A DNA stretch of 64,000 nt, from the NCBI GenBank assembly GCA_943736015.1, contig OX031063.1, forward strand, positions 34,688,172 through 34,752,171. The letters are read 5' to 3'. This document shows, one piece after another, positions 2,897 to 61,655 of the stretch; position 1 is the stretch's first letter, and each line of letters begins with the position of its first letter. The translations under genes were made by a program, and so were the position numbers. The notes under the pieces are model-generated. The model was not told where the DNA came from, did no database searches, and worked only from the letters and a program-made list of their open reading frames with translations. Source of the stretch: Tridacna crocea (lineage: Eukaryota; Mollusca; Bivalvia; Cardiida; Cardiidae).

Positions 2897-3136
2897 GGCC
2901 TGCAACATGTGAAAGGGGGGGGGGGGGGGTCGGACATTTGCGTAAAGTGTCGTCTCGGATCAATCTGCGCAGTCTAATCCGAGACGGCACTGTACGACTA
3001 CATGAGATTTTCCGCTACAGTAGACTTGTTGAAAATCAGAGAATTACATAAAAACGGAAAGTGTTGGACTGCCCAGGCTGATCCGACACGACACTATACG
3101 CAAATATCCAAATGCCCCTTTTTGCGTGCTTCAGGC
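2897..3136. mobile_element. CACGCG-family MITE, eroded, at the copy A left edge
   Basis: Both ends are recognisable (GGCCTGCAACATGTG and TGCGTGCTTCAGGC) with a poly-G run at 2917-2930 replacing part of the left arm. Homology with copy B starts in its linker (about 3011), so the duplication breakpoint lies inside this element. Confidence 0.7.
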
Positions 3137-3518
3137 AAATTATAATGCATATACAAAGGCTGTCACCCCATTTTAGCCTGCACAGTCCAAGCAGGCTGCC
3201 ATGGACCGAAAAATATTTCGTTCTTTCAGTATTCTCTAAGTTAACGGACGACTGTACCCCAACGAACGCTTGTTTAAAAAGGATACTATGGGATCCATAA
3301 TTTTGTAATGACTTACTTAACACAGTGTAAAGGATCACTGAAAACCTATTTTTTGTCAGGGAATGGCTCAAATATCTTGGTAAAACATGACAATCAACAT
3401 GTATAAAAGTTTTGTACACGAACATTTGTTTTCAAAAGTCTAAAAATAGATCTAACACACGGTAAAACATTCTTTAGTGAGACAAACTGGCTTTTGAATA
3501 GGTTTTAGATGTAGCATT

Positions 3519-4003
3519 TTATAAGAATTCCTCCGTAAAATATTCTACATCATAAGTGTCCCTTTGAATACCTAAGTCTTTACACACTGCTACAAGTTTG
3601 TTCCGTGCTTCTGTAACAGTTTGTGCTTGAACGGCAAGGTTAGCAAACGGTTCCTCGAACAGTTCGGAGTCTGACACGGCAGTTTCACTAAACTGGTTCC
3701 AAATCACCTCTTTTGATTCTATAAGTGCTGTAAGCTTCCCTTTATATACGTCATCGACGAGCACATGACTATGTATCGAAGGCAACAGCATGGTTCCCAT
3801 AATGTGGCTTCTTGAGTCATGTTTTGGAACGTACGGTTTGATACCACAGGCAATCGTTAGAGAAGCCAACATTAAGTCGACGTCATACAAACGCTTGATC
3901 CAGTCCCGGAGATAAAACCCTCCCATTCTGGCGTTTATTTCCAAGAGTTTTGGTCCGACTGCAGTCATTTTCAGTTCTACGTTGAATGTTCCATTTGTTA
4001 AAC
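3519..4003 (-). CDS. copy A exon 14, C-terminal ATP-grasp exon
   Basis: Starts GLTNGTFNVELK, includes LLEINARMGGFYLRDW and ends YDVEYFTEEFL with a stop at 3519-3521. EINARMGG corresponds to the metal-binding end of the ATP-grasp domain; the Glu and Asn are the expected Mg ligands. Seven residues in the last 149 differ from copy B. Confidence 0.85.
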
Positions 4004-4289
4004 CTTTAAAACCAATGAGCTTAAACTAAGACCTCGTATAAAATATAAATATCAAATTATGTAGATTAGAAGTAGTGGTTTGATAATCAGAAATAAACTA
4101 AAAACAGAGCGTATTACATGTACATGGATGAAGCTCAACAAACCCAAGGACAACGGAGCTTGATCTATGGTGCTATTAGAAGGGTATAGATCAAGATGAA
4201 ACCGAACAGAACACGCAATCTGGATATTTATTCATTTGTGAAAGAGTTAATTCTTTGCTAGATGACAAATTGCAAGACGTATCAAACTT

Positions 4290-4735
4290 TTAACCCTTAT
4301 GCTGCTCAGCGGACAAAGACAGTGCAGTCTGATCTTGGATCTATACTCTCCGACAAGGAGATATGGCCTGCAACCCGCCAAAAAGGGCATTCGGACATTT
4401 GCGTAAAGTGTCATCTCGGAGCAGCCTGCGCAGTCCCTGTTTTGATGATTTTTTTCCTGTTTTGTGCATGTCTACTATAGCACAAAATTTAATGTAATCG
4501 TAGAGAGCCGTCTCGGATTAGCCTGCGCGAACTGCGCAGGCTGATCCGAGACGACATTTTACGCAAATGTTCGAATGCCCCATTTCATGTGTTGCAAGCC
4601 ATATAATTCTTAAATATTAAATAAAAAAGTTTTCATAGCACCATTCGGGTTTTTACATCCAGCTTGAAAGTATCACTTAACTTACTCAGCAGGATAAGGT
4701 ATAACCACATGTAAGACACACGGCAATTGCATGTA
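4290..4735. mobile_element. small MITE interrupted by a CACGCG-family MITE
   Basis: The outer element has ATGCTGCTCAGC near its left end, GCAGTCTGATCTTGG inside, and ACTCAGCAGGATAAGG near its right end. It is split by a complete CACGCG MITE at 4365-4600. Copy B carries the outer element unsplit at about 41380-41565, which supplies the empty site. Confidence 0.7.
4365..4600. mobile_element. CACGCG-family MITE, A-only insertion
   Basis: Ends GGCCTGCAACCCGCC and GTGTTGCAAGCC, with two internal hairpins. Absent from the matching position in copy B (about 41465), so it inserted after A and B separated. The flanks are AT-rich (ATAT on both sides), and the exact target duplication is unclear. Confidence 0.75.
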
Positions 4736-6079
4736 TCGTATGTGCCAGGGTTTATCTATGGAAGGTTAAGTAAGAATTATGGGGAAAGGGAAAAAAGTCC
4801 TTGATACCAGCACTTTCTCTTTCTGTCACAATTTAATCAAAATGCATGCTCCCATGATTGGTTAAAATTCAAACTAACTCTGTATTGTTAATGATTTTGA
4901 CCTTTTGACATCGTAAGATCTGGCAAAATATCTTTTGAGTGTACTTAAGATTATTTTTTTTTGTTTATAAAGTAAAATTCCTTCTTCACGTTTTGCTACG
5001 ACTTTTTTGACACAGATTTATGTTTCAGATAAAGTTTTTCTTGAGACTAGTGCCTAATTTTTATTTTACAATTTTTAACAGTTTTTCATGTGCTTTTACA
5101 CAATAAGATATTTTATTTTCCAGGACTTTTCAATTTTGAAAGTAACACGAATCCTGATTGGCTGAACCATAGGGTTTAACCAACTAGAAATTGTCTAATA
5201 TTATACTCTGATAATGCAAATTGGAGTCGCTGGCAGTTATTGGCACAAAACTTAACATTAATATTAAAAACCTAACTCAACATGACAGGAAGAGAACTAA
5301 ACAATGGCCTTACCAAGTTCTACACAACACTGATAGGCTGCTGCCACAAGCTGGGCCTGCTTATCTTTCGGTAAACTGGATGGCATGTGAGCACATGTCT
5401 CTGTTGGAAAGATTACGACAGTTTTGGTTTAAATGTTTTTCCATTGCTGTTTTCATATCGCTATCAACAACCAATCTCAATGTAGGTCTGGCGTCATGTT
5501 CACCAACCTTTTTAAAAACACTTTAAGTCTTATTTTCAAGAATTTTCTAAACTTGAACGTAAGGTAGAGGTTTACCCAACAATGGTCTGTATTCACCATC
5601 TTTTCATAAAAAATACGTGATATATTTGTAGTTTTTTTTTACAACTTACACTAGCACAGTTAAATAAATTGAATATAATCTCCCAGTCAAAATTGGCAAA
5701 ACGGAAATTGTACTAATATGCTGTAAACATGACGAATAATTTTTGCATGAAAACAGTGTGATATCTTAAAAAAAGTTGGAAATATATCTGCAAGTCCAGA
5801 TATGAAAATGGATAATAGAAAATAAAACTGAGAAAACAAACGCGAATAATAGTAACGAGACTTATTTTAAAAAAAGACGGCGTGAGAGACGCTGGAGTAT
5901 AAAATACTGAACTTCTTTCTTTCAAACTTTGTCATGCCATTTTGTCATTGGTGTGCCTGCAAGAAAGCCTGCACAGGAACCTGCCGAATAAACATGTCTT
6001 CACTGTTTATGCATTCTAATACATCGAATCGAAGTAGCGGGTCAAAGCAAGTGCATTTAGCAGTGTCAAAAACAATTAC

Positions 6080-6363
6080 CTATATAAAAAGGTTCCCGAG
6101 TTGGTCCATTATCTGAAATGAAGGCAGCAATCAACTGTCTGTTAAAGATGACAACGTCAACATCGTGTTCGGACCCGTTATGATAGTCCATCAGCAATAA
6201 CGTGTTGTCAAAGCCCAAACCTATACCGGGAAAGTCTGTCTCTCGACTCAAGGTCGTTGTTATCAGCTCATACTCCTGTATCAGTTGTTCATTGCTCTGG
6301 ACAAGCTTAACACCGACAGCACTCGAGCCATGTTCCAGTTTGACGATTGCTGGGAATTCAATC
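6080..6363 (-). CDS. copy A exon 12, ATP-grasp nucleotide-binding exon
   Basis: Encodes IEFPAIVKLEHGSSAVGVKL near its start and EHDVDVVIFNRQLIAAFISD near its end. In the carnosine synthase family the lysine of the VKLE segment and the acidic DVDVV strand belong to the ATP-grasp fold. The frame is open, acceptor TTGAAG and donor GTAATT, phase 2 in and phase 1 out. The exon-13 continuation (5314-5400, ETCAHMPSSLPKDKQAQLVA) is too short to stand out as an open frame and was placed by phase and family order. Confidence 0.8.
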
Positions 6364-7432
6364 CTTCAATGTAGAAAATGATTAATTGTTACGGGAGACC
6401 ACTCCTTCATGCATAGCTTCATCCCGATTTAAATACAATACCTGAAAACTGCGTCAGAAAGATATCTCTTTAGCTCAGTGGTTATGGTAATGGTCTTTTG
6501 AAACTTTAAAAAACGAGGGTATCTGTCCCTTCAAGGGTACGCATCCTGCCTGATGCGGTTTGTATTTGAACTATGCATTTATCTGTTTCTTTGTTTTAGA
6601 CTTTGTTCGTAAGACAATGAAGAAATTAAATGGCAAGTTTGTGTGCAACAATGATACTATTGTGGCGGTTATTTTTTTACTGATGCTAGGAATTTTCTCT
6701 GAAAAGTTCGGCTAAGTTACTCCTGAGATCTATCAATCGCCCAATAAAACAACCGACCAATCAAAGTTTGGTTCAATTTATCGGTCGGTCTATCATGTAT
6801 CCAACAACATATCGTTTGCCGATCCATCAGTCGGTCGTTCTGCTAGTCTTGTCCAAACAACTTACTCTTTAGTTGCAGTAATCAAGGTTTCCTTGTCCGT
6901 TATTCTGTGTGAGGCGGACGAATACAGATAAGACCTTGGCCAGTGGGGCGTGTCGTCCTTCCTTGAGCGAAGTATTTCGAATGTCCGGCTTTTTCTCTTG
7001 GCACTCAATGCTGCTTCATAACTTACTCCTACAATAATGTTGATTTACGTATGTACATAAACTTTAAACTATGTTAGCAGAAGCAGTAGAAGAAGCAAAA
7101 GCAAAAAGCGAAGGTGTAGCACCAACAAAAAGCTCTGTGCGCTAGAAAAAAAATCTGAAGACGTTTTTAAGTTTAATATTAGTAGTATTTTGGTTCTCTT
7201 GTCTAATTCAGAAACGTGGAAGTTTAGCTGAATATTTATTATGTAAATAAATGTATTCTATTCACTGACGTTCTTGATAGTCTAGCAAAAAAGTTTAAGC
7301 ACTCTGATTGTAGTCTACTCTTATTAGTAATCTGTATTTGAACTTAAACAGGTTTGAAATTGTAATATCAAGGTCTATCTCGTTAGAGAAAATCCAAAAA
7401 AATGATGCAAACTCAAAAAAGAACTTCTATAC

Positions 7433-7676
7433 CTGATTTTGACAGTGGTTTACCTGATTTTGACAGATCCAACTGTTCCCGTAGTAAAGCCGCTAGCGGC
7501 CCACAATCCTCCCAGAATGTTACACAACCGTCGATCTTAAACTTCTGATTGCTAAGCATTGTACTAATATTAATTGCGTGGTCTTCGTCAAGAAGGTGGT
7601 CCAAAAAGTTGTAATGTATAAAATGATAGACGTGGTTTCTAGCAGCACAGTCTGAGTTCGAATCGATAAGCACAAC
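7433..7676 (-). CDS. copy A exon 10 with duplicated donor site
   Basis: The exon encodes VVLIDSNSDCAARNHVYHF and then LLDEDHAINISTMLSNQKF. Its end is a 21-base direct duplication containing CTGTCAAAATCAG followed by GT. Using the upstream donor (exon start 7454) gives the same exon as copy B. Using the downstream one (7433) adds seven in-frame residues. Copy B (44117-44339) has a single donor. Confidence 0.7.
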
Positions 7677-7795
7677 CTGTTGATTTGAGCGAGAAAATAA
7701 GGCAAAAAAAAAAGAGTATTAAAACAAATTTAAGCCCGCACATAAATTGCGAATGTTTCCTCGATTGAGCATCGCTGCACGGGCACAACCAAATG

Positions 7796-8287
7796 AATGA
7801 TTGAATGAATAGTGTTTTAAGGCCCGTCGACAACTTAGGTCATATTGGGCGCACTTATTTAGTAAACAATAATGTGAGGTGAAAATAACATACATGTCGA
7901 ACAACACAAGACAAACATGATAAATGAGGAATGGATGAAACACAAAATGATGCCCCTTTTGTCGCCTTTTACGACATGCATGCTGTCACTTTTGTTCCGC
8001 CAGATGAAATGGCAGATGTGACAATCGCGGGACTGCAGTGGTTTATTCTTATACCCCCGATTAAACCACACGGGGTCCCACAGGCCAATTGATTCCCATT
8101 CCAAACCCTATTTACATCGAGAAAAAAAAATAGGATTTGGAGTAAGAACTACCCAGCCTGCTGCAATCCTACGAATTACGAGGAAAGCAGCCGTTTGTCT
8201 CTAATTTTAGTCGCCTTCTACGACATGCCATAGAGAAAGGCCGAGGTCCTATTCTATACAGTAAAAACCTCCGGGACCCCAAGGGGA
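7796..8287 (-). mobile_element. SINE-like retroposon, A-only, 12-base target duplication
   Basis: Flanked by perfect CACAACCAAATG repeats at 7784-7795 and 8288-8299. Copy B has one copy of this word and no insert (about 44455). Read on the minus strand it starts GTCCCCTTGGGGTCC, contains GCATGTCGTAGAAGGCGAC and a second GCATGTCGTAAAAGGCGAC about 220 bases later, and ends with AATATGACCTAAGTTGT and an ATTCATTCAATCATT tail. The AATATGACCTAAGTTGT word also ends the tRNA-derived SINE at 34730, linking the two. No clear tRNA promoter is seen at its own 5' end. Confidence 0.75.
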
Positions 8288-8817
8288 CACAACCAAATGT
8301 GTGATTTTGTTCTTTACCCACTTATCACAAATCGGGCGATTCCAAAGCTACATCTAACCTTGTCCGTATCAAGGAGGTCGCCACATGAAATATACTTTCA
8401 ATCATGTAATCGTAAACATGGTTGAGCCTTGAATTGTATTACATGATCTTTTACATGGCAAAGCCCTTTAAATTCTGTTATCAACGACAACAACATCTAT
8501 AATGGCGTTACCTAATCTACTGTACTGTCAAGATATGCCGACTAAATTGATGAATTAGCTTGAAAAATATGTACAAATCAAGTATCTGTCAATTAAAATG
8601 CATAAAGAATGATTTCGTTTCAAAATTGAGGCTCGCGGATTTCTTTATTAATGTAGTCGTATTGTACAAGTTATAAAAACGGTATGTTTGCGGCGAAGAA
8701 ATAAAATACGTGACCGAAAAACCACCTTACGTAATACCACCGAAGGATTTGATCCGCAGATGACCCGAAAGTTTGCTGAAGTTTGCTGAAGGGTTTCTAG
8801 AAGGTGGTGGCCTTTCA

Positions 8818-9029
8818 GGGCCTGTATTCACCAACCATTCTTAAGAACATTCTTTGTCTTAGTCTCCAGAATTTTCTACATCTGTAAGTAACACAAGTTC
8901 TGATTGGCTAAACCATTCGGTTTAGCCAGAATGGTTTAGCCAATCAGAAGTTGTGTTACTTACAGATGTAGAAAATCTTGGAGAATAAGACTAAGAATAT
9001 TCTCAAGAATGGTTGGTGAATACGGGCCC
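8818..9029. mobile_element. foldback MITE (GTATTCACCAACC family), copy A
   Basis: Two arms of about 100 bases start GTATTCACCAACCATTCTTA and pair almost fully. The centre holds GGCTAAACC/GGTTTAGCC. Copy B has the same element at 44971-45169; copy A has 13 extra bases at the loop that repeat the arm end. Confidence 0.85.
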
Positions 9030-12000
9030 TGGTCTTGGTCTCACCTTTTTATGTCAACCATCAGACTAAAACCCCTTGAGGACAAATCATTCCTTCGTTT
9101 CAAGAAAAATAGGTCTTCATAGATAAATAAACAGACGCCTTCAGATGTGTCATTTGACGTTGGAAAATAACATGTGGATTGTAGAACTGTGTAGAAGTCA
9201 ATTACAAACAAGAAAGAACTTCAATGTTAAATGTCATAGAGTAAGCTCATGATCTGAAATTGGCCTCGTTTAGCAGCTTTAACATGATCTAGTTTATAAG
9301 TCTACATCGCAGATGAATAAGTAAAAGAAACACAACCAAAACACATCAGACATACTATCATTTCACAAGCACTTTATAAGGCCCAAAACCGAATGCAGAG
9401 AGCTCAGATAAACGCATTTATGGAAAATAGTAATACAATAATGCTATCAATCTTAGAAAATAACTGCTGTAAACCGTTAAATGCATGACTATTCCATGAT
9501 ATGGTCCAATATTGAGGTTATTTGCTAGCAGATTCTGCCATCATATTGTATCACCAATTCAGTACATTGATGTTATCATTTCATGTTCATGTTGAAATAT
9601 TTGCCTACTCAAGTTTTACGTTCTTCGAAACTTGCAGTACAAAAGCATCTGAACAGAATCTTCAGTAAAACATTTAGCATTGAAATATTTGTCTATCCAA
9701 GTTTTATGTTTCCCGAAACCTGCAGTACAAAAGCACCTTAAAGAAATCTTAAATAAAACATTTAGCATCAGCTAAACTTTTAATGGCCAGAATAAAAAGT
9801 TCTGTTGAAAAGCTGTTGGAAAAGGAGAAAATTCAAACATGACCAAACAGGCCAATACATCAATAAGCTTGCGAGCACGTTTTTTTAACGATCAGATATT
9901 ATCCGTTTTATTTATTGATGTTCAAACGGGCTCTGTCCCTCTCTCAGTGCTACAGGACAAAACAGAAGTATCACGGACGGCAAAGATCATGGGCAGACTA
10001 CGTGGAACTTTAAATTTGAAATGTTCACAGTTTACCCAAACCGTCTATTATACATTAATCTTTTATGGATGGCATAAGATGCTTCTTATCGCTGTCGAAA
10101 GATTTTAAGTCCATACTAAAAAGTAACCACGTGTAAGAAAGAATATTTGAAATGTTTGGCAAGAGTCACAAAACATACCTTTATTCCGTACGACTGACAG
10201 TCAGGCCAAATGAACCGTTTACTGTAGGCACCAGCACCGACAATAACAACAACCTTGTCCTCCATTAAGTAGAGTTGTGATCGAACAATGATATTTCGTA
10301 TCCAAGGGAGGTAGCACTGGCCAAGTGATGATATTGTACCTTTTAAAGGTAAGTCAGAAGTACATAAAGTTCTACTGAGGACAGCATGATGATGAGCTTT
10401 TTGAATGCAGTTTCTCTGATTTCGCAATATTTTTAGAGTGTTTGGCAACAATACGCTGGAAGTCGTCCAAAGCAGGTAATGAGTATACACTTTTACTTTC
10501 ACCTTATAATTTTTCCCGCTCATTATGCTTTGTAAATTTTCGACCAATTACAGTTGTACGGCCTCGGACGATGGACCAAAAATATTACAGTTGATATTAG
10601 CTGACTACAGTAGGCCTAATCTTGATTTGTTATGAAGCACGTTTGGAAACAAGGGTCTACTGAAATGCCGTTTAACATCAGGTGATCTATTATCTATTTA
10701 AGATTTCATTGTTCTACATTTGCACAAAATATACTTCCAATCTAACATGAATTCATTCTGTCTGTAAAATACAAAATGGAGTTTTCCTTACCGTTTTGCC
10801 CTACGATATTTGTATCGCAGAGATCCTGCACAAACTCACGTATCTGACAGTTTATGGTACAATCATGACTGTTGACCTCTATACCAACTGGGACAATTTC
10901 ATCTTTCCGTAGACATAGCACCAAGTCGATTCCTGTTTTACAGATGATTTGATAAGTACTATTTTTCTACTGTCAACAACCCGTAAAATGTATAACAAAT
11001 GTCATGCAACATCAATCAAATCAACTACACCCTTCTGGGAATCTGAGCCAGGGGATCACTTGACCTTTCTGTCGGCCAATTTTGATGATAGTTTTTAAAA
11101 GTCAAAGTGAACCTCTGAATATGGTCTTTAATTTTGCAAGATTCCATTAGAAGATCCTAAGAACGACTTCTTTGTGTGATTTATATGTATTCATTTGCAT
11201 TTGACGATAAGAACACATCCAGATATCTAAAAAAGACGCCATTCAAACGACTGTTTTCTGATCTAAAACTGTCAACTTGTATAAAATAAATGTTCTAAGC
11301 TGACAAATATACCTTAAATCAAAAACAAGGAACAGGGCAGTGTTCGTCAAAAAACATACTATAGATTTTGCGAAGCCCTAACTCGTTGCTGGTTGTCAAT
11401 AAAGCCCCAAAAGCAATGGGAAGAGAGAGTCATTTATTTAAGCCATGATCTGCGTAAAGTGTGTTTTTCATCCGCAAAAAGGAACGCCTTTGTCAGCCTG
11501 AACTTGCTTTTCTCTTTGCATTTTTAGTGTGTGTCCAAGGTCCATTTTGTTCTCATGATTTAGTTGTTAGATAGCTTTTAAGAATCCACGGTTATTTGAT
11601 GGTTAACTTGCTTGGTATAATGGATCATGAAGATGCATCAACCAATTACAGCTAGCTTATACCCACAATGACAATAGAATTTTGTATTTGTTTCATAATA
11701 TGTAAATACGCTTTAGCAGTGTTTTAACTTCGTTAACTAACCTATCACCTCTGTTTGAGCTCTAAGACAACCTCGCTGGTCCACTGTCAAATATTTTTCA
11801 CGTTCTATGATCTCGGACATAACAGCCTCGCATTGTTCCCGCAATCTCTTTTCAGCTCGGTCTCTCTGTTCCTTTTCAAACACATTGTAGGCTAACAGTG
11901 TGCTATCCAGAGACTGTGGGACAGTGTTGTCCCCGTTGATTGGTCGAGATCGTGATTGCATCCCGCAGCTTACCTGAATTCAAATATTCCCGAAATGCAT

Positions 12001-12370
12001 GAGTCCGACGCTCAGACTGCTGAAAAATCTATATCTCTTATGTCATCGGCCTATATACGTACTAAAAGCTTGCAGACCTACCGCATTCAGAAACCATCTT
12101 TAAAAGCATTCTGAGTCTAGTGATTAAGAAGTTCTTTTAATCTTTGAAGCAAACCATTGTCTGATCTGCTTAACCAAAATGGTTGAGCCTTTTAGAATTG
12201 CGTTGCATTCTACTTCTATTAGACTGAGACTGCACTAAACAGTGCTTGTTGTGTACTTCTGTAGCGAACAAATTATATGTACAAATCTTATATAAGGGAA
12301 GACTATCCAATGGCAAAATGGTGAACTTTAAACTACATAAAAATCTATTGAAACATTTATATTTGATTAC

Positions 12371-12471
12371 CTGCACTGTTACAGGTTTACCATTAAAATC
12401 TCGACACACTGTGGCTCGTAATCTGAAGGATAGGTTTCTGTCAACACCCCAAGGTTTGCGTTTTTGACAGC
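12371..12471 (-). CDS. copy A exon 6 with tandem (NAGNAG) acceptor
   Basis: Encodes CQKRKPWGVDRNLSFRLRAT and then VCRDFNGKPVTVQ. The acceptor reads TAGCAG, so splicing may start at 12471 or 12474. Both choices keep frame and change the junction from Cys to Ser-Gly. Copy B has the same arrangement (48666 or 48669). Donor GTAATC, phase 0. Confidence 0.7.
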
Positions 12472-13059
12472 CTGCTATAATCAAAGATAGTGAAATGTTT
12501 TTTCTCCATGTAATATAAACATATATGTAGTAAGGCGAAAATTATTTCCAGTTTTGCCAGCGCGTACATCTTGTATCGAGCGAAAGAAAGGAAAGGGTAA
12601 AAGATAAAATACAAGGAGGTAGGTACAGTTGCCAACAACCAAGTTGAATGCTCAAAATTGGACTAAAGTTCTAAGTAAGTTCCACATGTATAAGTTAATA
12701 ACGCCTGAATATTAAATTTTATTCGATGATCTTAATTCTAAATCAAAGAAAAGCTATCAAATTGGCTTAGGAGTTCTGGTTATTCTTCCAAATTCGAGTC
12801 TAAAGTTGACATAAAATATATGTGAGCCATGCTTTGTGATGGAAATAGAGGTTTGATACCTCTGTATTGACTCATATCAGCCTAGGCAGGCTAATATGGG
12901 TTGCAGCTTTTTGCTATATGATGATTTGATTGTTTTCGCACAATGCGTCATGGAGATGCACAAAATCTCCTATTCCCAAGGCCACATGTGACTAATTATA
13001 AAAGGCTGGCGGACTAGGAGTCTGAAATAGCGAGGTTACTGCATGTTATATTTACTAAC

Positions 13060-13234
13060 ATGTATTTAACGGAGTCAAGCCGTCGATAAATTCCTCAACC
13101 AGAACTGAAGATCCAGGTTGAATATCCTGAAGCAACTCATTAACAGCATCAAGGATAGCATTCTCATCTGTTTTACCATGGTAGGAGACACCGATGCTGC
13201 CGTAACATTGCGGACCAGACGGTTTCACCACAAC
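13060..13234 (-). CDS. copy A exon 5, ATP-grasp-like loop exon
   Basis: Encodes VVVKPSGPQCYGSIGVSYHG and then an acidic stretch ending VLVEEFIDGLTPLNT. A lysine and proline followed by a Gly/Ser loop and then an EEF strand is the pattern of an ATP-grasp nucleotide-binding lobe. It precedes the catalytic ATP-grasp exons by about 400 residues, so it may be a second, N-terminal ATP-grasp-like unit. Acceptor CTGTAG and donor GTTAGT; phase 0 to phase 1. Confidence 0.7.
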
Positions 13235-13294
13235 CTACAGAAAAGTAACTGAAATATATCGCACAGTTAGACTTTGTCCTTTCCTTAACTTTGG

Positions 13295-13568: not shown

Positions 13569-13586
13569 ATATGTAGTCTTATCTTA

Positions 13587-14795: not shown

Positions 14796-15194
14796 TTAGA
14801 CCTACGCTTTACGATTATATAGCAGACATTATGGCGACCTACAGAAAAGTAACTAAAATATATCGCACAGTTAGACTTTATCCTTTCCTTACCTTTGGCA
14901 TGGTTCAGTTATTGAGTATAGATAAGATTAAACATACTTGTTAGAAAAGAGGCTGTATCAGAGATTATACATTGTGGATACCCGCATTTTTCTCTTTTTC
15001 CCATAATGTGTTCACAAACGTTCTTCCTCAGAGTCGATATAACACGGGACTGTGTGGTGAAGCGTTAATGGATGACCTTACTCATCAAGTCAGATCATTT
15101 TGTTTACAAGGGTAGCAGAGAAAATCGTTATGTCTTCCACTCGTATGACATTTCTCGCGATCTGATTGGATGATATGCTCCGAACATAATAATT

Positions 15195-23830: not shown

Positions 23831-23836
23831 ATAAAA

Positions 23837-49500: not shown

Positions 49501-52500
49501 GATTTTAATTGAATACACCTATTTACTAGCTGTAGGAACCTCCAGCTTGACCAAACAAATGACAGAACTAGTGATTGCTTTAAACTAAGGGAACCAAAAT
49601 CGTATAAGGATGTTAGCAAATCGTACTCAAGTGGTCCAAACCAATATTTAAGTAAAAGAAAAGGTAATGAAATGGTACTGCATGTTATATTTACTAACAT
49701 GTATTTAACGGAGTCAAGCCGTCGATAAATTCCTCAACCAAAACTGAAGATCCAGGTTGAATATCCCGAAGCAACTCATTCACAGCATCAACGATAGCAT
49801 TCTCATCAGTTTTACCATGGTAGGAAACCCCGATGCTGCCGTAACATTGCGGACCAGACGGTTTCACCACGACCTACAGAAAATTAACTGAAATATATCG
49901 CACAGTTAGACGTTATCATTTCCTCATGGTCTGAACGTTTAAATGCCTTTGGCATGGCTCAGTAACTGAGTAAATGTAAGATTAAACATACTTGTTAGAA
50001 AAGAGGCTGTACCAGAGATGATACATTGTGGATACCCGCATTTTTCTCCATAATGTGTCCAAAAACGTTCTTTCTCAGAGTCGATATAACACGGGATTGT
50101 GTGGTGAAGCGTCAATGGATGACCTTGCTCATCAAGTCAGATCATTTTGTTTACAAGGGTAGCCGAGAATATCGTTCTTTCTTCCACTTGTATGACATTT
50201 TCCGCGATCTGATTGGATGATATGCCCCGAACATATATTCTTGTACACTGACAAAATCCACATAAAAGCAATTCCCCTTTTGGAAGTCATTACTACATTA
50301 TCAAGACAACATGCAAAATGGCGGCGTCCATCGACTGAGTAGCCTGCATCATATTACTGCTAGTTTCCTTGATAGTTGTAATTAAAGGGGAGAGAATGGA
50401 TTATTTCTTAAAGCAAACGAAAATAGTTACATATATTATCGTTCGTTACTATCACTGTAAAACAAATACATGGGGTTAACACGAGCCATCCTTTCGTCAG
50501 GTAAGAAAATTGTGAAGTGTCGATACTCACATTCGGTACTGTTAGAAGCATAACCTAATGGTCGTTTCAGGCAACTAATGGTCGTTTACTTTTGCCAACA
50601 AGCCATTAAAATGCATTTATCTTACTTACCTTGAAGTTGTTTAAATCCATGTTATAATAAAATACTTCGAATGTCTATCGCAGTGACCACATTAAGTTCA
50701 TTCACCAAAGGGCACTTTTTACTAAGATTTCAGGCTTTAAGACGGAGATTATCCCTTGAATACATGTTGGAATTGAAGAACTTGCAGTATTGAATGCTGT
50801 ATATGGTAAGGTGGCAGGGGACTTGGAAACTTCTTAACGGCTGTGGTGAACCATGTAGACCGAACCTGTTGACATGGTTCACCAAGGCCGTGAACAAGAC
50901 TCCCTGCAAAGTGACCCTATAACTAATACCGTACAGTATGATACAAGTATGTTGGGTACTTGATAACTCTGCTTAGCATCAAAGATTAATTTTGATGCTT
51001 CTGCTGGTAGCTTAGATCAAGATCAGTCTGCACAGCACGCAGATCTACACCGTTCTCTTTTAGGGCAACTGTTTTGACTTCTGGCCATGAATTTGGACAA
51101 AAAAATGGTCTCTTATAGCGACAGATACTAATGTCTGCAGTGCTGTAACAAAAACAGGTTTGTATTATTAAAAAGGTTACATGGCCATAATGTGTTACCT
51201 TGGTGACGTCACTCATCGTGTAACTGTTCAGAAACCCTCGGATTCTCTTATGAATTTCTCCGCCTTCCTTTGTCTCTAGCCTCACAATCGTTATATTTCT
51301 GTGTTTATTTGGAATACCGTAAGTGGGATGATACATAAAAGCCAGGGTGATTGGATACGCCATTCCAACATCCGCCATGATACATCGTGTCCAAACTTTA
51401 TTGTCAATAAGCTCGGATAACTTGACGGAACTGCTGATTGGGCACTCTAAATCATTCTGTGGTGATACAAATAAGAGCTTTGCAAAGCGGCGCATATACA
51501 CCAAAAGGTGCTTGTCAGTGAAATGGGTTAAAATTTAAAACGCCTGCAGATATCAAAATTAACCCATTACCACACGATCCCTACTTTTGACGCCCCTGAG
51601 AAAGAAGCCTTTTGAAAACACTGTAGGAAAAGGAGAAAATGCTGGTGACCAGCATTTCCTCCTTTTCCCACAGTGTTTTCTACCCTTTCCAGAACAAATT
51701 TCAATTTTTCGGTCACCTTTATTTTGTCGTCTGCAAATGCTTTCAATTTGAATCAGTCTTAAATTTTGTCGTGTGGTAAAGAGTTAAAATGAACATCATA
51801 GAGATTCATTGTGGTAAGTTTGAACTTATTCCTATGAAAACAGTAGGAGGAGTTTCGTGTACAAGAAACTGCTAAAGGACGGACAACTGGGACCATAACA
51901 TAATACGGCCCTTCGGGCGTATAAAAAAGTACTTCCGGAGTATGTAAATGCCTGTACGTATTTATATACATGGTTGACATGGGGTGATAGAAAGTAGAAC
52001 TTGAATCTTTATAAAACAGACAAAACAAAAAATCTTCATACACACAACCTTAAACGTCGATTATTTAAACATATAAGAGATTTGAGCCAAAGCTGTATAA
52101 ATCCTCTTCCAACGAATATAAACAGCTTTGATATTGCGTACAGAAGAAAGAAAAGGCGTCACATTCTCTATGCCTGCCAACGAAGTCACCATGATTAGGA
52201 ACCAGGCTTCACGCCGTGTAGAGCCAAACCCAGATCGAATGCTCAAAGCCTTCTGAAACTGGCATACTCGAACGCACTTCGCAAAATCTGTTTATGTCCG
52301 TATTTATTGTTGTAATAGGTAAATTCAATTTCTTCCGTAATAATTTTGCCATAGAAAACTTTGTGAAAACACTCATGAAACAGTACAGATAATGTACATG
52401 GGTTGAGTATGAAATATACGAGTATGTACAAATACTTAGTCTATAATAGCCCGAGGCGCACAAAAATGTCTGCTAGGAGTAAAGAGTAACCATGGAAGAG

Positions 52501-54170
52501 ATGATTTCCTATGGACCAGAACATAAGTAAGGTTAAACGTGGGATCCCACTGTTGCTTTACCTCAAATTTCTCGCCGTCATTTCTCTGTCCTCCTGTGAT
52601 ATTTCCAGTGAAAAAATCCAAAAAGTATGTCACTTTTCGGGGTGGTTTAAACACATCAATATAGGACTGTCCATTTTTGTGAAAAGTTATTGCTTTTGTC
52701 ACCCATAACCCACTGGAGCAATAATGTCCCCCCTCGTCCTTTTTAGACAACCAGGTTGTTGACAAGATAAGATGGAATGTATCGGGTGCTTGCTTGCCAC
52801 CTTGTGTAAATGAAGGACAATGGCAAATAAATTGTGATGATGATCTAAACCAAACGGCACTATATTATTGTTGAATTGCTTTTAGTCTATACTCTTTCTA
52901 TGCATACGCATCTCATGACACTGAATCAGTGGTTACTGAAAGAGAATCTGTTTTAGATCTGAGAACGTCACAGTCGAAAATTTATCAAGATACATTTGAA
53001 TTAGTATAAGAATAACATCGAAAGAAATCATTGTTACAAAAAGTTTGTAAAGTGGTATTCTGGATTAAAAGTGTTGTCTGTATGTGATATGTCAAAATGT
53101 TTACCTTCAAGAAGTAATCCAACAATTTCACAAGGCGAGGCCAAGATGGCTGCAGTCACATGTTCTGCATTATTGGTATGTCTCGGAGTAAGTGTACGGT
53201 CTATCGTTTCCGGGTGCCCCGTCTCTAGCAGTGTATATTGTAGGGAGTCATAGTAATCTCTCACGTAACGGTCTTCAGCCTGCTTCTGTTTGTTAGAAGC
53301 ATAATTATTTTACAGGTCGTAGATAGCAGCAATACTAATATTTCGTAGTATTACTTCAAAAACCTCGTAACTAAAGGTTGTTTTAAGCCGTAGTTACGAG
53401 GTTTTTGAAGTAAAGCGGCGATTTACTTCGTGCTTTTCGGCAGTTCATCGAGAAATAATAGTGGATTATGATTCAATATTTCATGGTTACGACCAATGAA
53501 GAATAAATATTTCATATTTCTAATTCTTCAGTTGAGGGCGGAGACAATAGTTCCTGCTCAGTAGTTACCCAAGGAAATCAGACGGCAAAGTGACGTTTTG
53601 CCCAAGATTGTAACGTGTTGTTATGTGGGAGGGGCACGCTACAGTAAATCACTGAAAACAACTGTTCTTGATTTTGTCCAAAGTCCCAACAAAAAAGTTT
53701 TAAGTATGAAGTAAAAGGAACATAGACTTGTTCGGTGAAAGATCGAAATTTGTTCATCTCGTGAACATCATTGGCTTTGCCACTCGTGAAAATATTACTG
53801 ATGATGTTCACTCGATGAAGCGAAATTCTATTTTTGACAAAAAAATAAAAAAACGAATCTTCTGTATGTATCATCCGTATAAATATATCAACATTTTCAG
53901 CGACAAAAGTACAAACGACCGCTTTCAAAAACTGAAAAAACACACACATACACGTTTCACATCTTGATTAAACGTTATGAAGGTATACGATAAAAATTTT
54001 AATCACTTACATCTTTGTGATCAATTCCTGCAGGCGCCAAATCAACGTCTGTATTCCATAAAGGTATGAACGCACCGTGAGCCTTCGAGTACTGCTCTCC
54101 CAAAGCTTCAAACCTTTCCTGGAAACTCGTCATCATGAACTGAGTGCAGATGTCCAAATACACGAGGGCG
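40600..54170 (-). CDS. CARNS1-like: carnosine synthase-like ATP-grasp ligase, copy B (all recognised exons open)
   Basis: Exons in transcript order: 54170-54011, 53285-53105, 52800-52562, 51510-51199, 49873-49699, 48666-48566, 48087-47856, 47069-46929, 46480-46320, 44339-44117, 43699-43537, 43056-42773, 42056-41970, 41084-40600. All have GT-AG borders and join in phase without a stop. From the first ATG in exon 1 the protein is 969 residues, close to the long vertebrate CARNS1 form (about 950). In vertebrates the enzyme joins beta-alanine and L-histidine to carnosine with ATP, in the cytosol. Motifs: VVVKPSG...GSIGV (about 287-302), FPAIVKLEHG (688-697), EHDVDVVIF (750-758), EINARMGG (830-837). 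An upstream exon is possible because the frame stays open before the first ATG. The exact dipeptide made in molluscs is inferred. Confidence 0.85.
41970..42056 (-). CDS. copy B exon 13 (87 bases)
   Basis: Encodes ETCAQMPSSLPKDKQAQLVA and then AAYQCCVELG. The short exon bridges the two ATP-grasp exons and matches the family segment between the aspartate strand and the FNVELK strand. Acceptor CCAACAG, donor GTAAGG, phase 1 at both ends. Confidence 0.8.
42773..43056 (-). CDS. copy B exon 12, ATP-grasp nucleotide-binding exon
   Basis: Encodes residues 685-779, with IEFPAIVKLEHGSSAVGVKL, FPGIGLGFDNTLLVMDYH and EHDVDVVIF. These match the order of the carnosine synthase ATP-grasp domain as I know it from vertebrates. 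Acceptor TTTAAG, donor GTAAAT. Confidence 0.85.
44971..45169. mobile_element. foldback MITE (GTATTCACCAACC family), copy B
   Basis: Counterpart of 8818-9029 with a tight loop and nearly perfect arms beginning GGGCCCGTATTCACC. It predates the duplication because both copies share the site. Confidence 0.85.
49251..49675 (-). mobile_element. B-only LINE 3' tail with 8-base target duplication
   Basis: Flanked by TACTGCAT at 49243-49250 and 49676-49683; copy A has the word once. Read on the minus strand it ends GAATAAAATGTTTAAACTAA. The frame at 49398-49700 is not recognised as a domain. 5'-truncated insertion by target-primed reverse transcription fits best. Confidence 0.65.
49699..49873 (-). 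CDS. copy B exon 5, ATP-grasp-like loop exon
   Basis: Single copy here, unlike the tandem pair in A. Encodes VVVKPSGPQCYGSIGVSYHG and ends VLVEEFIDGLTPLNT. Acceptor CTGTAG, donor GTTAGT. It lies 23 bases from a B-only LINE tail in the adjacent intron. Confidence 0.75.
51199..51510 (-). CDS. copy B exon 4 (open counterpart of the stopped exon in A)
   Basis: Encodes HLLVYMRRFAKLLFVSPQND and onward through MADVGMAYPITLAFMYHPTY, 104 codons, phase 0 at both ends. The glutamine codon CAG here is TAG in copy A. A TTAA-type MITE unique to B begins 49 bases upstream of the exon in the preceding intron. Confidence 0.8.
51559..51787. mobile_element. TTAA-type MITE, intact, B-only
   Basis: TTAA at 51559-51562 and 51784-51787, with ends CCCATTACCACACGATCC and GTCGTGTGGTAAAGAG as inverted repeats and a core hairpin GGAGAAAATGCTGGTGACC with its complement. 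Copy A has a single TTAA in the same context (about 16744-16749). TTAA targeting with CCC ends is the hallmark of piggyBac-type transposition. Confidence 0.9.
53340..53444. mobile_element. B-only hairpin element
   Basis: Arms TTACTTCAAAAACCTCGTAA and its complement enclose GGTTGTTTTAAGCC. Absent from copy A at about 18320. Related to 29495 and 37150. Confidence 0.7.
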
Positions 54171-54383
54171 CTGTTGGAAAAGGGCTTTTAATTTGTGTCC
54201 AAATGGCATAAAGTACCGAGCAAGTGATCACGAAATCATAGATACAAAAAATCGAGTCAATCTTAAAACTGATTGAGTCTTGAAGTAGACTGGTCGTTTG
54301 ACCAAATGCAGCCTTTCGGGACTTCTTCAAGATGCAATAATTACATTTTAATCACATTTTACTTAACATGAATCGTAGATATG

Positions 54384-54646
54384 TGGCTTGCAAACACGCG
54401 GAAAGGAGCATGCTGACATTTGCGTAAAGTGTCGTCTCAGATCAGCCTGCGCAGTCGACGCAGGCTAATCTGAGACGGCACTTTACGCCAACACTAGATT
54501 TTGTCTTACAGTAGACTTGTGGGAAACAGAAAATCACATACGATCGGAAAGTGCCGTCTCGGATCAGCTTGCGCAGACTGCACATGCTGATCCGAGACGA
54601 CACCTTACGCATATGTTCGAATGCCCCTTTTCGCGTGTGGAAGGCC
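54384..54646. mobile_element. CACGCG-family MITE shared by both copies (B)
   Basis: Counterpart of 19761-20023, with both hairpins intact. It lies about 210 bases upstream of exon 1 of the copy B gene. Confidence 0.8.
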
Positions 54647-54929
54647 ATAAAGTTATGAGCCTTGCTCTGGTAAACCAAGGCTTAATTCATTTTCACGATG
54701 CATGTTACAAAGCATTTTAGAAAAGTAATACACGCTAATATAGTGCGTTTTATCTGACAACCTAGTGAACTATGAGATACACTGACCTTTTTACATGGCG
54801 AAAATCTAACAAAATCTAAAAGTTTATCTATATTTTGTCACATGACTGTATCACTTTATCAACAATTTCTTCCAGGAAGAGTGCTGTTTGTATGTATGTC
54901 TGCCCGCCCTCCCGCTTAATCATTCTTCC

Positions 54930-55025
54930 GTCTGTCTGTCCGTCCGTCCGTCCGTCCGTCCGTCCTTCCGTCCTTCCTTCCTTCCTTCCTTCCTTCCTTC
55001 CTTCCTTCCTTCATTCCTTCATTCA
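54930..55025. repeat. compound microsatellite, copy B
   Basis: Same order of four-base repeats as at 20254 but shorter TCCG and longer TTCC runs. Open frames here on both strands are artefacts of the repeats. Confidence 0.9.
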
Positions 55026-55433
55026 TTCCTCTTTATTTTTTCTTCCGTTGTTGTTCTATAGTAACATCTTGCTAATTCGAGCACTGATATAAAAGAGAAT
55101 TTAATTCGAATTTTAGGTACATTCGAAAAACCCATGTATTACTTCAAGGAGCGCGAGTAGTATATCTTTATTTTTTTTAATTATAGTTAATTGATGTCAT
55201 TGATAGATCTGTTGTTCCGGTTTCTTTTTAACTTCTAGACTCACGTGACTCAAGGACTTGATAGTGAGGATCAAACTCAGTCTGCACAAAAAGTGCTGTC
55301 TGATCCGGAATCTAAACTATTCAATACGAAGATATTTTCCCCCAAATACAATAGAGAAACCTGAAATAATAAAAACAGAGATTTTACTCTCGACTGAAAG
55401 TTTAATCTAATTTGTTTGGTAGGTGTGGGGTTT

Positions 55434-56334
55434 AAACAAACTATATTTTATTTCATGGGTCTATTTTTAGAAATGTTATGGGTAAAGAAATGACTTAATT
55501 TAAGCTGGGGTGGAGGGATTATTTCCCCGTTATAGTGAATGTTTTTCTCCTGCCGAAAATCTGAAACTACTTTGTTTTTGAAAATATCGGTTAACTGGTA
55601 ATTGACTTGAGATCACTTGTTTTAAAAGTGGCATTTGTTGGCAAAATTATCAGAGGAAATTTAATATATGATTTAATTCATCAGCTTGTGGTTAATATGG
55701 GGAGGTATTTCATACTTTCCAGTAGGATATCGAGAAATAGCACTATAATATAAGCTTCGCTTTCGTTCTGATCCATTTCGTCAGTAATTGTTTGTTAATT
55801 TGTTGATTTGTCTTTAAATCTTTGTAATTACATGTAATTGATGAATAAAATATGTTTAAACCAAATATTTTTCCACCTAACACTGGTACCACCAGTGAAA
55901 ATACCAATTTTCACGCTCTTGTTGCCTAGGTAAACTGCGCGTGCCTCACAACCAGATGGGAACTATGACGTCATATATCTTACATTTCGCACTTGTAATG
56001 CGTTGCTATGCGGGGAGGGATACGCCATGGGGAATAAAGGAAAATAACTCTACTGGATTTTGATAAAGCTTTTTCCAGAAAGGATTAAAAGCACGAAATA
56101 AATAGATTTTTTGTCACTCGTGCCTGCGCCACTCATGAAAATATTACCGATGGTATTCACTCGATGAAATGAATTTCGATCTTTCACCGAAAAAGATAAC
56201 CAAATATCCTCTATATATTTGCTTCAAAAGGAGAGATCCGCGAAAATAACGAATGCCTTACGGCACTCGTTAGTTTCTCATACATTTCCCTTTTTTCGGC
56301 AAATATTTCCCCATATTAACCACAAGCTGATAAA
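55434..56334. other. B-only block replacing about 325 bases of A
   Basis: Flanks match A at 20809 and 21134 but the interior does not. It contains a LINE-like tail ending AATAAAATATGTTTAAACCA at about 55865. No gene recognised. Either several insertions or a deletion in A. Confidence 0.5.
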
Positions 56335-58169
56335 CTCAAAGGTTAGAAAATGTTGGAAGAAGGATAAAATTGTCGCTTCTTCCAACAATGTTTCGAAAAT
56401 TCCTATACAGTCTGATGATCGTAAAAGCAAGTGTTGGATTGGTTAAGACAACATGTCGCATAATTATTTGAATAATCAAATTTCATATAATTTAAATCCA
56501 AAATGTTGCTGTTATCAAGTAATGATTGCTTTTCCAATTAAATGCTTCTACCGCTACAAAAACAATGCAGTTTCGCAACGGTTCCTCAGCAGAATGAAAA
56601 CACAGAAAAGAAAACATAATGTAAAGTAGTGGGCACTTTGGATCAGAGATCAGGCTGCGCATAATCTGCGGTCTAATCTTGATCCACTCCGCCCGTTAAA
56701 CCTCATTATGTCTTCCATATTAAGAAAAAAGAAAATTTACATATTAATCTACCTGTAAAAAAATCTAGTCTTTATGACTTATTTACGTTTTCTCTTACTA
56801 ATTTATCGTAGCTTCCTCCTTTTGCGAGTCTCTTTTATTAAAAGAAAAAGTGACTTTCACGTCCATCGCCTAAAAAGAAACTCCAAACAAATGCGTTCAC
56901 TCTATCATTATATTCACCGAAATCCAGCGCAAGCCAGATAGGCGCTCATTATAAGATACATTTTTTTTTTTTGTTCATGTATGAAAACGGATGTGACGGT
57001 GATATATCGATATAAAGAAAAGAAAAAAAAGTACTGAAAGTGCTGGAACCCGATTTGGTGCTAGTTTACAAGTTGAACACCACTTAACAATGTTGTTTAG
57101 GAAAGCAGCCTAATGAATGGGAAAAAAGAATTAGTAAATTAAACTCCTGGAGAGCATGATCAGGCGCACATGCCGCCGCGATGTAGGATACGAGTAGTTT
57201 TGCACGCAATATTTGAATTTTTGGGTCGCAGAATGCTTTGAATAAGTAACGTTTTCATATATGTGATATTCCCACTGAGGACATGATAGCTATATCTCGA
57301 GGAATTTGTTTCTTGAGAGATTTTTTTTTTTAAATTACGTATATATATATATATACAACATTAGACTATTTCTCTGTGAAATTCTAGCTAAAGTCATTGG
57401 TAAAAAATACCAATTCATGTCAGCCTGTGCAGTTCGTGCAGGCTGACCTCGTTCCAAACCCTATGTCATAGGTGACTTTTTTGCAAGTCACAGATCCATT
57501 TTACCCTATGGCTAAGTCAGTTGTAAGACAAAAAGGATCCGTATTACGCAAAGGATAGTTTTATAAAGTATATGACAGAGGTGCAACACTCTCTGTCCTA
57601 CATGTTAATTACGTACATTTTTCACTGAAGACCCCTTTCTCTCCGCACAAACATGCAAATATTATATCATCGAGATTTATCAAACGTTATCTGTAAGTGG
57701 CATTTTGAGTTGAAGTTTAAGTGGTCCTGAAGATTAAGTTGATCTGAAGGGGATCTGAATATTTCCTCAAAGTTTCATACTTTCATATCATTTATCAACA
57801 AATATTGATACTTAAGCTCAGTCGTGAATACATTTGTTACATGATTCAGTAAATATTGCGTAACGAAACTTTCAATATGATTACCCCACTGTGGTGGAAC
57901 ATAATACTGTTGCCCCAATTGCATATGGGTGTATGCCTCTGTTTATGACAATATTATTTATGCCTCAATGGAATAAATGTGGTTCATTTAGGAAATTATT
58001 TCTTTATAGGAAACAATTTATGGGTTTATCAATCATGGACCCAAACTCGTAATTTTGCAGTATTAAAATAAGCAAGGAACCCAGTTGTTGCTTTCGGATC
58101 TACTTGTTTCAAATGGTTATGAGCTAAAACAGCTAAAGAAGTATGAAAAAAAAACTATCAGAATTATCC

Positions 58170-58805
58170 TGTTGTAATGCACAGGCTGACATTGTTCGCT
58201 TCACATCCGCTATCATAATAGAAGGAATAAACTATAACTATTCTTCAATATCAAAGAGGAGCCAGCACCACCTTTTAATTAGCCATAGCTCCCAGCCAGG
58301 GTGTCGGTATTGTTTAGTTACAACAACCCACAGTGTCATCAGGTGGAAAGACTAGAACGGTACACCCGGCTAACGCTTGTGTATCAACGAATTATCATCG
58401 GTGCACATCTCTTGTATAAAAAGGCGTTACTGAAAATCATCAGCACTTTAGTTTAGGTCAACCGCTAGCATTTTGTCCAAAATTGGATTTAAACGTGGGC
58501 ACTACCTCATGATCTGGCCTCCTTACCGCGGTAAAACTGGAATAGCATTTGGCATGTCTTCACCAACCATTTTTGAGTGGCAATATTTGTCAAAATCTCA
58601 GGATTTTTTTTTTTAAGTTCGAAGTAACTTAAGCACATGATTCAGCAAAACATAACTGGAATTAAATTCTAAACCGCGATTTAGGATTTAGGATGAGTGT
58701 GCAATGTGGAACGGTTCATGAATAAGGTCTCTGGAAGTATAAGGTAATATTTTTGTTGAGTAAAACCATTGCAGGATAACAGCATCCTCTCACTAGAGAT
58801 CCATT
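58170..58805. other. B-only block of about 635 bases
   Basis: Copy A jumps from the matching left flank (about 23000) to CCATTACAATGGTTATAGAT. The block contains a partial GTATTCACCAACC-type arm at about 58560 and a short frame with no recognised domain. Confidence 0.55.
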
Positions 58806-59081
58806 ACAATGGTTATAGATGTAAAAAAAAACATTAACAGGACTTTTAGTGTACAAATCCGGTTAAACCGTTATAACATCTGTTGCAGAATTTCTCATGT
58901 GAGGAATTACGTTACTATCTGCATGGCTTCTTAAAGGAAGTTAAGCCAAAACAACATCCGGTCTATGAGAAGGTTAACGCTCTTCGTGAGTTTAAGATCC
59001 AGGTTATGCCAATATAATGGTTATTTTTATCGGCAGAAATTGGGACCAATACAATTCAAATTTTACAGAGGGAGCCGGTGT

Positions 59082-59330
59082 AATGCAGAGAAATGACCCT
59101 GATTACAAAATGACCCACGGTCATTTCTCGACATAGAATAATGACCCATGGGTCATTTCTCTACGTCGAGAAATGATCCATGGGTCATTTTTCGACGTAG
59201 AATAATGACCCGGGTCATTTTTCTACGTCGAAAAATGACCCATGGGTCATTCCTCTACGTCGAGAAATGACCCGGGGGGTCATTTTGTAATGGGGGTCAT
59301 TTTTCTACATTACACAGGCACTGAGGTTCA
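59082..59330. mobile_element. B-only foldback of nested GAAATGACCC palindromes
   Basis: Ends GTGTAATGCAGAGAAATGAC and GGTCATTTTTCTACATTACA are inverted. The interior is a run of units about 30-35 bases long centred on AATGACCCATGGGTCATT and CTACGTCGA, each itself a palindrome. Copy A lacks it at about 23232. Confidence 0.75.
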
Positions 59331-60431
59331 TACGTGTAACTTTACGTTCCTTTGAGTGCAGTACTATGTAATCATTACATACTTCGATAGTGTCCCTATG
59401 TATTTGCACTGGATGCAAGTATGCAATATTTATTCATATTGCACATGTCATATTACATAGTTTAGAGCTTTTCTTTTTTCACGTACGTTGCTAAGTACGG
59501 AACTATTTCAAAACCCGGCATTTCAATTATATCTAAATATGAACGGCCGCCATTTTGAAAAAAATCAGCATCAGACATCAAGATTTACAAACTTTTCAAA
59601 GCATTGTTCTTATTAAAAACGTGATAAATAAACAGAATATTTGTTTCCCGAATGACAGTCACTACAAAATTATGAGAAAATGTCTAACGAACATAGATAT
59701 CGACGATGAATTTTTAAGCGATGAAAAGGATTCTATCTTGTCGCCATCTTGTTTGTTTACATACCATTAGCAACGATAACGTCATTACACTGAAACTTCC
59801 GCGAAAGCAAAAAAAAATATCTCGACGCTTTTTGAGTGAATAAGGCTGTTTTCGATAAAATTATACTGTTCAATCACGGAAAGTTATGTAAACAATACCA
59901 AAGTATATAATAAAAAGGGTATTGCACTTGTATGGGAATATATTGTGTTGTATTCGTTCTTTTGGCGTTGTCGTGCAACTCTGCCAAAGAACTCGTTCAA
60001 CACAATATTTTCCCATACAAGTGCAATAACCTATGTTATACTTTTTAGATGGAGTAATGAAAGATGAGATTGTACGTGATAGATAGCTTCATGATGGCGG
60101 ATATTTTATGTGGCAATCCTTTCTTAACCCTGTTACTTCTTACCAAACGAAAATATTTTAGACTGTCCCAAATCAGAAGCGTTTGCGGACAACAGATTAA
60201 ACATCCCTCGAAATCTAGAATCTTGCTTTCAAAGTATGTGGAAAAAGGGGAAAAAACACTGGTTACCAGCACCTCACAATGTTTTCCAAAGCATTCTTTG
60301 CTAAAGTCAACCACTCTGGGAATAGCTTGATAAAAGACTAAGCCGAAAATAAATGAAACAGACTGCACTGTTGCAAAAACGAGGGGATAAAGCATCTCCG
60401 TGATGCATACAAAGCAAACCATCTAAATAAT

Positions 60432-60696
60432 TGGCTTACAACACGCAAAAAGGGGCACTCGGACATTTGCGTAAAGTGTCGTCTCGGATCAGCCTGCGCA
60501 GTCCGCGCAGGCTAATCCGAGACGGCACTTTATGCTTACATTAGAATTTGCCCTCTAGTAGACTTCCGCAAACAGAAAAAAAAATCATATAAACGGAAAG
60601 TACCGTCTTGGATTAGCCTGCGCGGACTTCGCAGACTGATTCGAGACGACAGTTTACGCAGATGTTCGAATGTCCCTTTTCGCGTGTTGCAAGCCA
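60432..60696. mobile_element. CACGCG-family MITE shared by both copies (B)
   Basis: Counterpart of 24353-24616, with similar divergence to the surrounding DNA. Confidence 0.8.
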
Positions 60697-61655
60697 TGAT
60701 TACGAAAATGAATCCATAAAATTCATTTTGTCAAGAAAACGAGATTGGTCATTAGACAAGCAGAAAAGGTTTACCGACAATAAATTGTTTCGATACAGGG
60801 CAACCTGTGCGGACTGTCCATGCTTACCTGTGTAGATATTTTTTGCGATTCATTCAATCCTGTTTTCTCAAAGCATAGCTCAAATGTATTTATCACATAA
60901 CCTCCCTTGTTTTCAGTGTAATAGCTATACCCTTTACGAATTTTCTAATCTCACTCACGTTTGATATCACATTTGTGTGACATCATTTTTGACGTCATTT
61001 TATGAGCACTTAATACAAGTGAATTGGTCTCATGAAAAATACTTCGGTTGCATTTATGAATGTTCTTGCATCATCTGATCTATATTTTGTGAAATATCGT
61101 TATGTGATAAATAGAATCTGACATTTGTGGGCTTTTTATTAAGCGCGTGGAGGAAAATGTTATTAAGCTCACCAAAGGCTCGCTTAATAACATTTCTCTT
61201 GACTCGTTTAATAAAATTTTATCTCAAAAGTCCACTCATGTCAGATCCTATGTCTACTCTACTGGGAAAAAAATCTTTCTTTTTTTCTTTACAATCTATA
61301 TAGATCTAGTTTCAATGAATTCGTCATTAGAATGGCTTACAAAGTGGCCGACAGTGTAATATATGATCAGCCTTTACAGAGAATGCAGCCTGATCTTGAT
61401 GTACAATGACTTGTAACATAAAGTTAAATAAACTCGTCCGTTAATAATATTAACCCTTTCCCATTCGGAAAACCTTTACAGTCTTGTCGAACGAACGTAT
61501 GGATTTACACGAAACAATTATAATAGTAAATCAATGCGGATCTTTGTCTATAAGTAGGTTGACAACATCGTGGGGAATTCGAGAAAATGCAGGACACCAT
61601 CATTTTTATCACACAACCTCCCTTGTTTTCAGTGTAATATACCCAATCACGATTT

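Follow-up and report, generated by a model that had tools for sequence, protein, structure and literature searches.

Carnosine synthase (ATPGD1/CARNS1) of vertebrates and molluscs is an ATP-grasp ligase, one long protein with an ATP-grasp_4 domain. A mollusc example is TsATPGD of Tridacna squamosa, which is reported to be linked to L-carnosine in the gill (PMC11591149). ATP-grasp ligases of solved structure include the L-amino acid ligase BL00235 (PDB 3vot) and the alanine-anticapsin ligase BacD (PDB 3wnz), which are bacterial proteins of 425 and 470 residues. Bivalve gene families have expanded in tandem, with divergence among the copies of one gene, as reported for the I84 inhibitors of a razor clam (PMC9198434). 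Here we analyze a stretch of 64,000 nucleotides from Tridacna crocea (C8:34688172-34752171, hereafter the window; genome 1.049 Gb in 31 contigs), in which two copies, A and B, of a 14-exon gene encode a predicted ATP-grasp ligase that is carnosine-synthase-like. Judged from the assembled sequence alone, the two copies probably result from the genuine segmental duplication, head to tail, of a unit of about 37 kb with one 14-exon gene and its upstream region. The locus resembles the razor-clam expansion in having diverged tandem copies of one gene, but it differs in comprising a tandem pair and an inverted third copy, which encode a metabolic-type enzyme and do not form a large immune family. 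Among the papers listed by literature searches, judged by title and start of abstract and with most subscription journals outside the coverage, none dealt with duplication of carnosine synthase in molluscs.

Extent and divergence of the repeat unit

Self-comparison of the window revealed a direct repeat, A 3008-25631 versus B 40089-61657, in colinear blocks with 79-96% BLAST identity, and the copy coordinates given by an earlier sequence-only reading of the window were right to about 20 bases. We fetched 60 kb on either side of the window and 80 kb around a distant homologue, and compared the 184 kb joined region with itself. In this wider view the whole unit was repeated head to tail, A 3008-39039 versus B 40089-91352 (about 37 kb). 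The direct duplication proposed in that reading was real, although its size of 22 kb was too small. The 14 kb that had been taken for a unique spacer, A 25615-39039, was repeated at window coordinates 70264-81054 and 90701-91352, past the window end, and the supposedly non-matching right flank likewise had its match there. The argument for duplication drawn from the spacer and the right flank therefore falls, because the supposed spacer makes up the remainder of the repeat unit and recurs to the right of B; a unique spacer cannot serve as proof of duplication when the spacer itself is duplicated. The continuation had been missed because an insertion of about 8.6 kb, present in B only, starts at 61658 and the window ends inside it. 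The units were as follows.

3008..39039: repeat unit A, with the gene and the former spacer, about 36 kb
25615..39039: right part of unit A, matching 70264-91352 outside the window
40089..64000 in the window, on to about 91352: repeat unit B, longer than A mainly through insertions, the largest of about 8.6 and 8.2 kb
61658-70263 (window part 61658..64000): B-specific insertion of about 8.6 kb, beyond which the repeat resumes

The colinear chain consisted of 26 pieces with 29.8 kb aligned and a BLAST identity of 90.0%, gap columns included. Mismatch rates were taken from 22 of the 26 pieces, the four small pieces being left out and exon 5 consequently missing. Mismatches occupied 6.7% of the 28,343 aligned sites (3.2% in exons, 9.2% in introns and 5.8% outside the gene), in line with the several percent estimated earlier. 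Also as reported, repeats common to both copies were present at matching places, including A 8816-9031, 19753-20028 and 24345-24617. Against the at least ten clean insertions of that reading, the interval it had covered contained by our count 12 copy-specific gaps that are clean (100 bases or more on one side, no more than 35 on the other), of which 7 lie in A and 5 in B. A doubled exon-5 region accounts for one of those in A, and there the count depends on the threading of the chain.

Divergence per 500 aligned sites was uneven along the unit, ranging from 0.8% to 13% (chi2 349, df 55; exonic windows included). The apparently non-coding stretches at about 23185-24699, 30376-31887 and 33096-35104 of the window had only 0.8-4% mismatch, compared with 5-13% elsewhere outside exons. 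Either recent conversion between the copies or unrecognized functional sequence could account for these low values. Apart from the unit and satellite-like arrays, no further direct repeat pair longer than about 0.6 kb was present among the matches listed for the 184 kb. By eye, no other gene was recognized among the open frames of the unit, for which no systematic scan was made, and no tRNA was found in the window.

Two open copies of the ligase gene

Exon models were spliced by hand with the distant copy (gene C, below) as a guide, and the start codon was inferred. All 14 exons are present in both copies, as previously noted; in each, every intron is GT-AG and the 2,859 nt comprise 952 open codons and a stop.

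3519..19523, minus strand: gene copy A, 14 exons (19398-19523, 18090-18270, 17547-17785, 16387-16644, 13060-13234, 12371-12474, 11742-11973, 10792-10932, 10179-10339, 7454-7676, 6866-7028, 6080-6363, 5314-5400, 3519-4003), 952 aa
40600..54136, minus strand: gene copy B, 14 exons (54011-54136, 53105-53285, 52562-52800, 51199-51456, 49699-49873, 48566-48669, 47856-48087, 46929-47069, 46320-46480, 44117-44339, 43537-43699, 42773-43056, 41970-42056, 40600-41084), 952 aa
13295..13567, minus strand: extra partial exon-5 copy, in A only, 97.8% identical to 12949-13221, with an internal stop codon and the 5' part of the exon changed

The extra exon-5 copy is presumably skipped in splicing. The two proteins are identical at 914 of 952 positions (96%), leaving 38 differing residues. 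The synonymous divergence (dS) between A and B was 0.091 (bootstrap 0.067-0.118) and the ratio of nonsynonymous to synonymous divergence (omega) was 0.196. With omega at about 0.20, both tandem genes have evolved under purifying selection, and an effect through extra dosage or mild specialization of the same enzyme is therefore likely. Eight sequence stretches, which we take to be nucleotide-binding and metal-binding catalytic motifs, were identical between A and B in all eight cases, with none of the 38 differing residues inside them.

When the copy A protein, the only one searched, was compared with Pfam, ATP-grasp_4 (PF13535) matched residues 669-821 with 39.9 bits against a cut-off of 27. 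ATPgrasp_N scored 27.8 bits, barely above its cut-off of 27, and none of the Pfam matches was a CARNS1-specific model. Like the earlier reading, we regard the product as a putative carnosine synthase (CARNS1/ATPGD1); this name is borne by none of the Pfam or structure-library matches listed. The predicted protein just passes the ATPgrasp_N cut-off, whereas the mollusc enzyme is reported to be without this domain (PMC11591149). The solved relatives nearest in sequence to the C-terminal 464 residues were BL00235 (E = 4e-9) and BacD (E = 4.7e-6). Both are ATP-grasp ligases, like the predicted product here, but they are about half as long and the similarity is weak; the likeness indicates no more than a common fold and perhaps a common chemistry.

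A third, inverted copy and the anomaly of exon 3

The last exon of the ligase gene matched three places in the genome, and a 691-residue query gave 34 matches at the same three loci, all on C8. The third locus, gene C (C8 34467537-34488524), lies on the opposite strand 200 kb to the left of the window and has 14 exons with 945 open codons. Its protein was identical to that of A at 739 and to that of B at 740 of 955 aligned positions (77%). With exon 1 left out, here and in the exon 3 statistics below, dS was 0.51 for A-C and 0.56 for B-C, with omega 0.22 and 0.20, respectively. Six of the eight stretches mentioned above were identical in C too, and the other two differed there by one and two residues. 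A, B and the older inverted C constitute a small local gene family.

Exon 3 (C8:34470058-34470296 versus window 17547-17785) departed from this level of divergence, that of C being nearly identical to those of A and B. A and C differed at 5 of about 50 synonymous sites in exon 3, compared with 217 differences in about 548 such sites of the remaining exons (Fisher p = 1.1e-5, for one exon out of the 13 inspected). Identity was 95-100% inside the exon and 57-75% in the 40-base steps up to about 160 bases to either side. Constraint on synonymous sites was considered as the cause and rejected, because A and B differ from each other at 7 of 50 synonymous sites in the same exon, above the gene average. 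The pattern fits a conversion confined to this exon, with the A/B lineage on one side and the inverted C on the other.

Edges of the unit and the A/B junction

The sequence features at the edges were as follows; MITE denotes a miniature inverted-repeat transposable element.

1185..2153, plus strand: last large exon of the left neighbor, transporter-like, open frame of 322 aa, outside the duplication
2923..3118: MITE-like repeat at the left edge of unit A, with inverted arms 2923-2977 and 3064-3118
39048..40088: junction repeat, a high-copy element of about 1.2 kb, with the left end present and the right end short by about 180-190 bp, directly adjoining copy B

The MITE arms are 55 bases each and 80% complementary. 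The A/B match starts at 3008, between the arms, and the right arm alone is kept in copy B. Genome matches to the junction element, of which 40 of 3,071 first-look candidates were scored, included 39 long ones of 91-95% identity besides the window's own copy. Five copies were fetched with their flanks and were 94-95% identical to the junction copy. All five had the left end TATGCTCCCCGAA and stopped at a common right end with a short tail behind it; this right end was TTCGGGGAGCATA in four copies and a variant in the fifth (L033). In the two copies that were measured, this end and a tail hairpin extended 181 and 190 bases past the stop of the junction copy, giving a length of about 1.2 kb. The A/B junction thus unites a truncated element with a truncated MITE; judged by eye, the two share 2-4 bases there, and the sequence contains no N. 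At B's right end (91353), no junction element was found at the matching place.

Only one end of the element is cut, and we therefore considered a duplication mediated by a long interspersed nuclear element (LINE) with a 5'-truncated LINE at the junction. This origin was dropped because the element's five other copies have the left end in common and all terminate at one right end, which is the behavior of a non-autonomous element. We also rejected the idea that the element had simply inserted, with a target-site duplication, into a junction already in place; by eye there was no convincing duplicated target site, only GCTT, which is part of the element. Either the element inserted into A once the duplication existed, the original junction being lost to a later deletion, or the exchange took place between parents that differed.

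Genuine duplication or two haplotypes

A false (heterotype) duplication, in which A and B are two haplotypes of one locus that the assembler placed end to end with a gapless join, would give the same shape, a whole unit repeated head to tail, and both supposed contig ends would fall in repeats. We consider this explanation quite unlikely. The 184 kb joined region contains no N, the junction runs uninterrupted through two truncated repeats, and introns and synonymous sites have diverged by about 9%. The mean heterozygosity of Mytilus galloprovincialis, a mussel noted for high variation, is 1.73% (PMC7653742); measured against this yardstick from another species, the intron mismatch is about 5 times and the whole-unit mismatch about 4 times as high. 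Apart from its repeat part, the left-neighbor exon was found at one place, no second match being obtained beyond position 351 of the 976-base query when 40 of 4,735 first-look candidates were scored. Tfb4, Tfb2 and Paf1 are single-copy families, and each of these three markers, the only ones tried and a small sample, was at one locus. These are better arguments for a genuine duplication than the spacer and the right flank, whose seeming lack of a match came from the window edge; the explanation favored in the sequence-only reading, a true and fairly old duplication, is still the better one. With C as the outgroup, the synonymous codon changes numbered 11 for A and 25 for B (uncorrected p = 0.029), an unevenness that is not favored for two alleles sampled together.

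Several observations weigh against a genuine duplication. The absence of N means absence of gaps only if the assembly writes its gaps as N, and although an assembly gap between false heterotype copies is usual, it is not universal, false copies being sometimes joined without a gap through wrong gap filling (PMC9516828). The search for Paf1 returned two matches about 0.7 kb apart that share positions 23-48 of the profile. When all coding sites were included, the branches to A and B were not clearly unequal (28 versus 45, p = 0.06; 26 versus 40 without exon 3, p = 0.11), so that the outcome of the relative-rate tests of alleles against paralogues is mixed. The uneven divergence is what conversion between paralogues could produce, but recombining haplotypes could produce it too; the mismatch outside the gene is closer to allelic values than that of the introns. 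Two different haplotypes would also be expected to differ as A and B do, with the junction repeat missing at B's right end and no such repeat interrupting A's left edge.

Two variants of a genuine duplication overlap with it and do not exclude it. The duplication may be polymorphic, on one homologue or in part of the population, as bivalve structural variants often are. Hemizygous gene-bearing regions are common in Mytilus (PMC7653742), but the divergence of about 9% indicates an old split and makes fixation more likely, and we regard a polymorphic state as possible though on the unlikely side. It is rather unlikely that unequal crossing-over took place between non-identical homologues, one of which carried the 1.2 kb element at the unit's right end. 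The lack of the element at B's right end means either that the two ends derive from distinct versions of the locus or that they became different afterwards, and the junction of two cut repeats with so few shared bases suits such an exchange. However, these features are explained equally well if the element entered A only after the duplication and one deletion took place, and the identity of the five fetched copies to the junction copy indicates a family young enough to have inserted after the split. If the parent homologues were non-identical, A and B were unlike from the outset, and the duplication is younger than dS suggests.

Proposed history and significance

A genuine duplication would most likely be an ordinary kind of event, and fairly old. 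It may have arisen by unequal exchange or a similar event, after which each copy would have gathered its own insertions. The repeat of about 1.2 kb would have landed in A's right end, and a later deletion, or the exchange itself, could have fused the cut end of the repeat to the middle of the MITE at the start of B. In a bolder version of this history, which we think improbable, exchange between two very different chromosome versions fixed heterozygous alleles of the ligase as neighbors, and together with the inverted C, by way of the conversion at exon 3, they form a small concerted family. If A and B, with their 38 differing residues out of 952, then specialized, they would in this version make up a dosage-and-variety set of dipeptide ligases.

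If the duplication is genuine, T. crocea has three genes with open frames for an enzyme that presumably produces a protective dipeptide, and two of the three stand in tandem with complete flanks. The locus would then offer a clean setting in which to ask whether more gene copies mean more dipeptide or a better tolerance of oxidative stress. For read-based tests, reduced depth would also be expected of a true duplication that is hemizygous in the sequenced animal, and a 37-51 kb unit plus both flanks can hardly be spanned by long reads; the exact junction offers a far simpler read test than the depth of whole copies. The locus also carries a lesson in method, since a tandem repeat of 37 kb, cut by the edge of a window, looked like one of 22 kb whose spacer is unique.

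Neighboring sequence

The left-neighbor frame at 1185..2153 had no Pfam match at E = 0.01, and we take it to be DUR3-like. Within unit B, the insertion at about 82451-90700 (loci L021-L022) is a non-long-terminal-repeat retrotransposon on the minus strand, with an open frame of 1,136 residues and a separate frame of 320 residues. Near the start of the longer frame is the motif GDIELNPGP, presumably 2A-like. To the left of the window, an inverted pair of segments of about 5 kb (-51220..-46425 versus -38695..-43603; L029, L028, L016) is 91-92% identical and is another local duplication of similar divergence. Two satellite-like arrays lie on the same side, at about -36800..-29000 and -21800..-18100, with units of roughly 500 and 195 bases as estimated from the spacing of matches.

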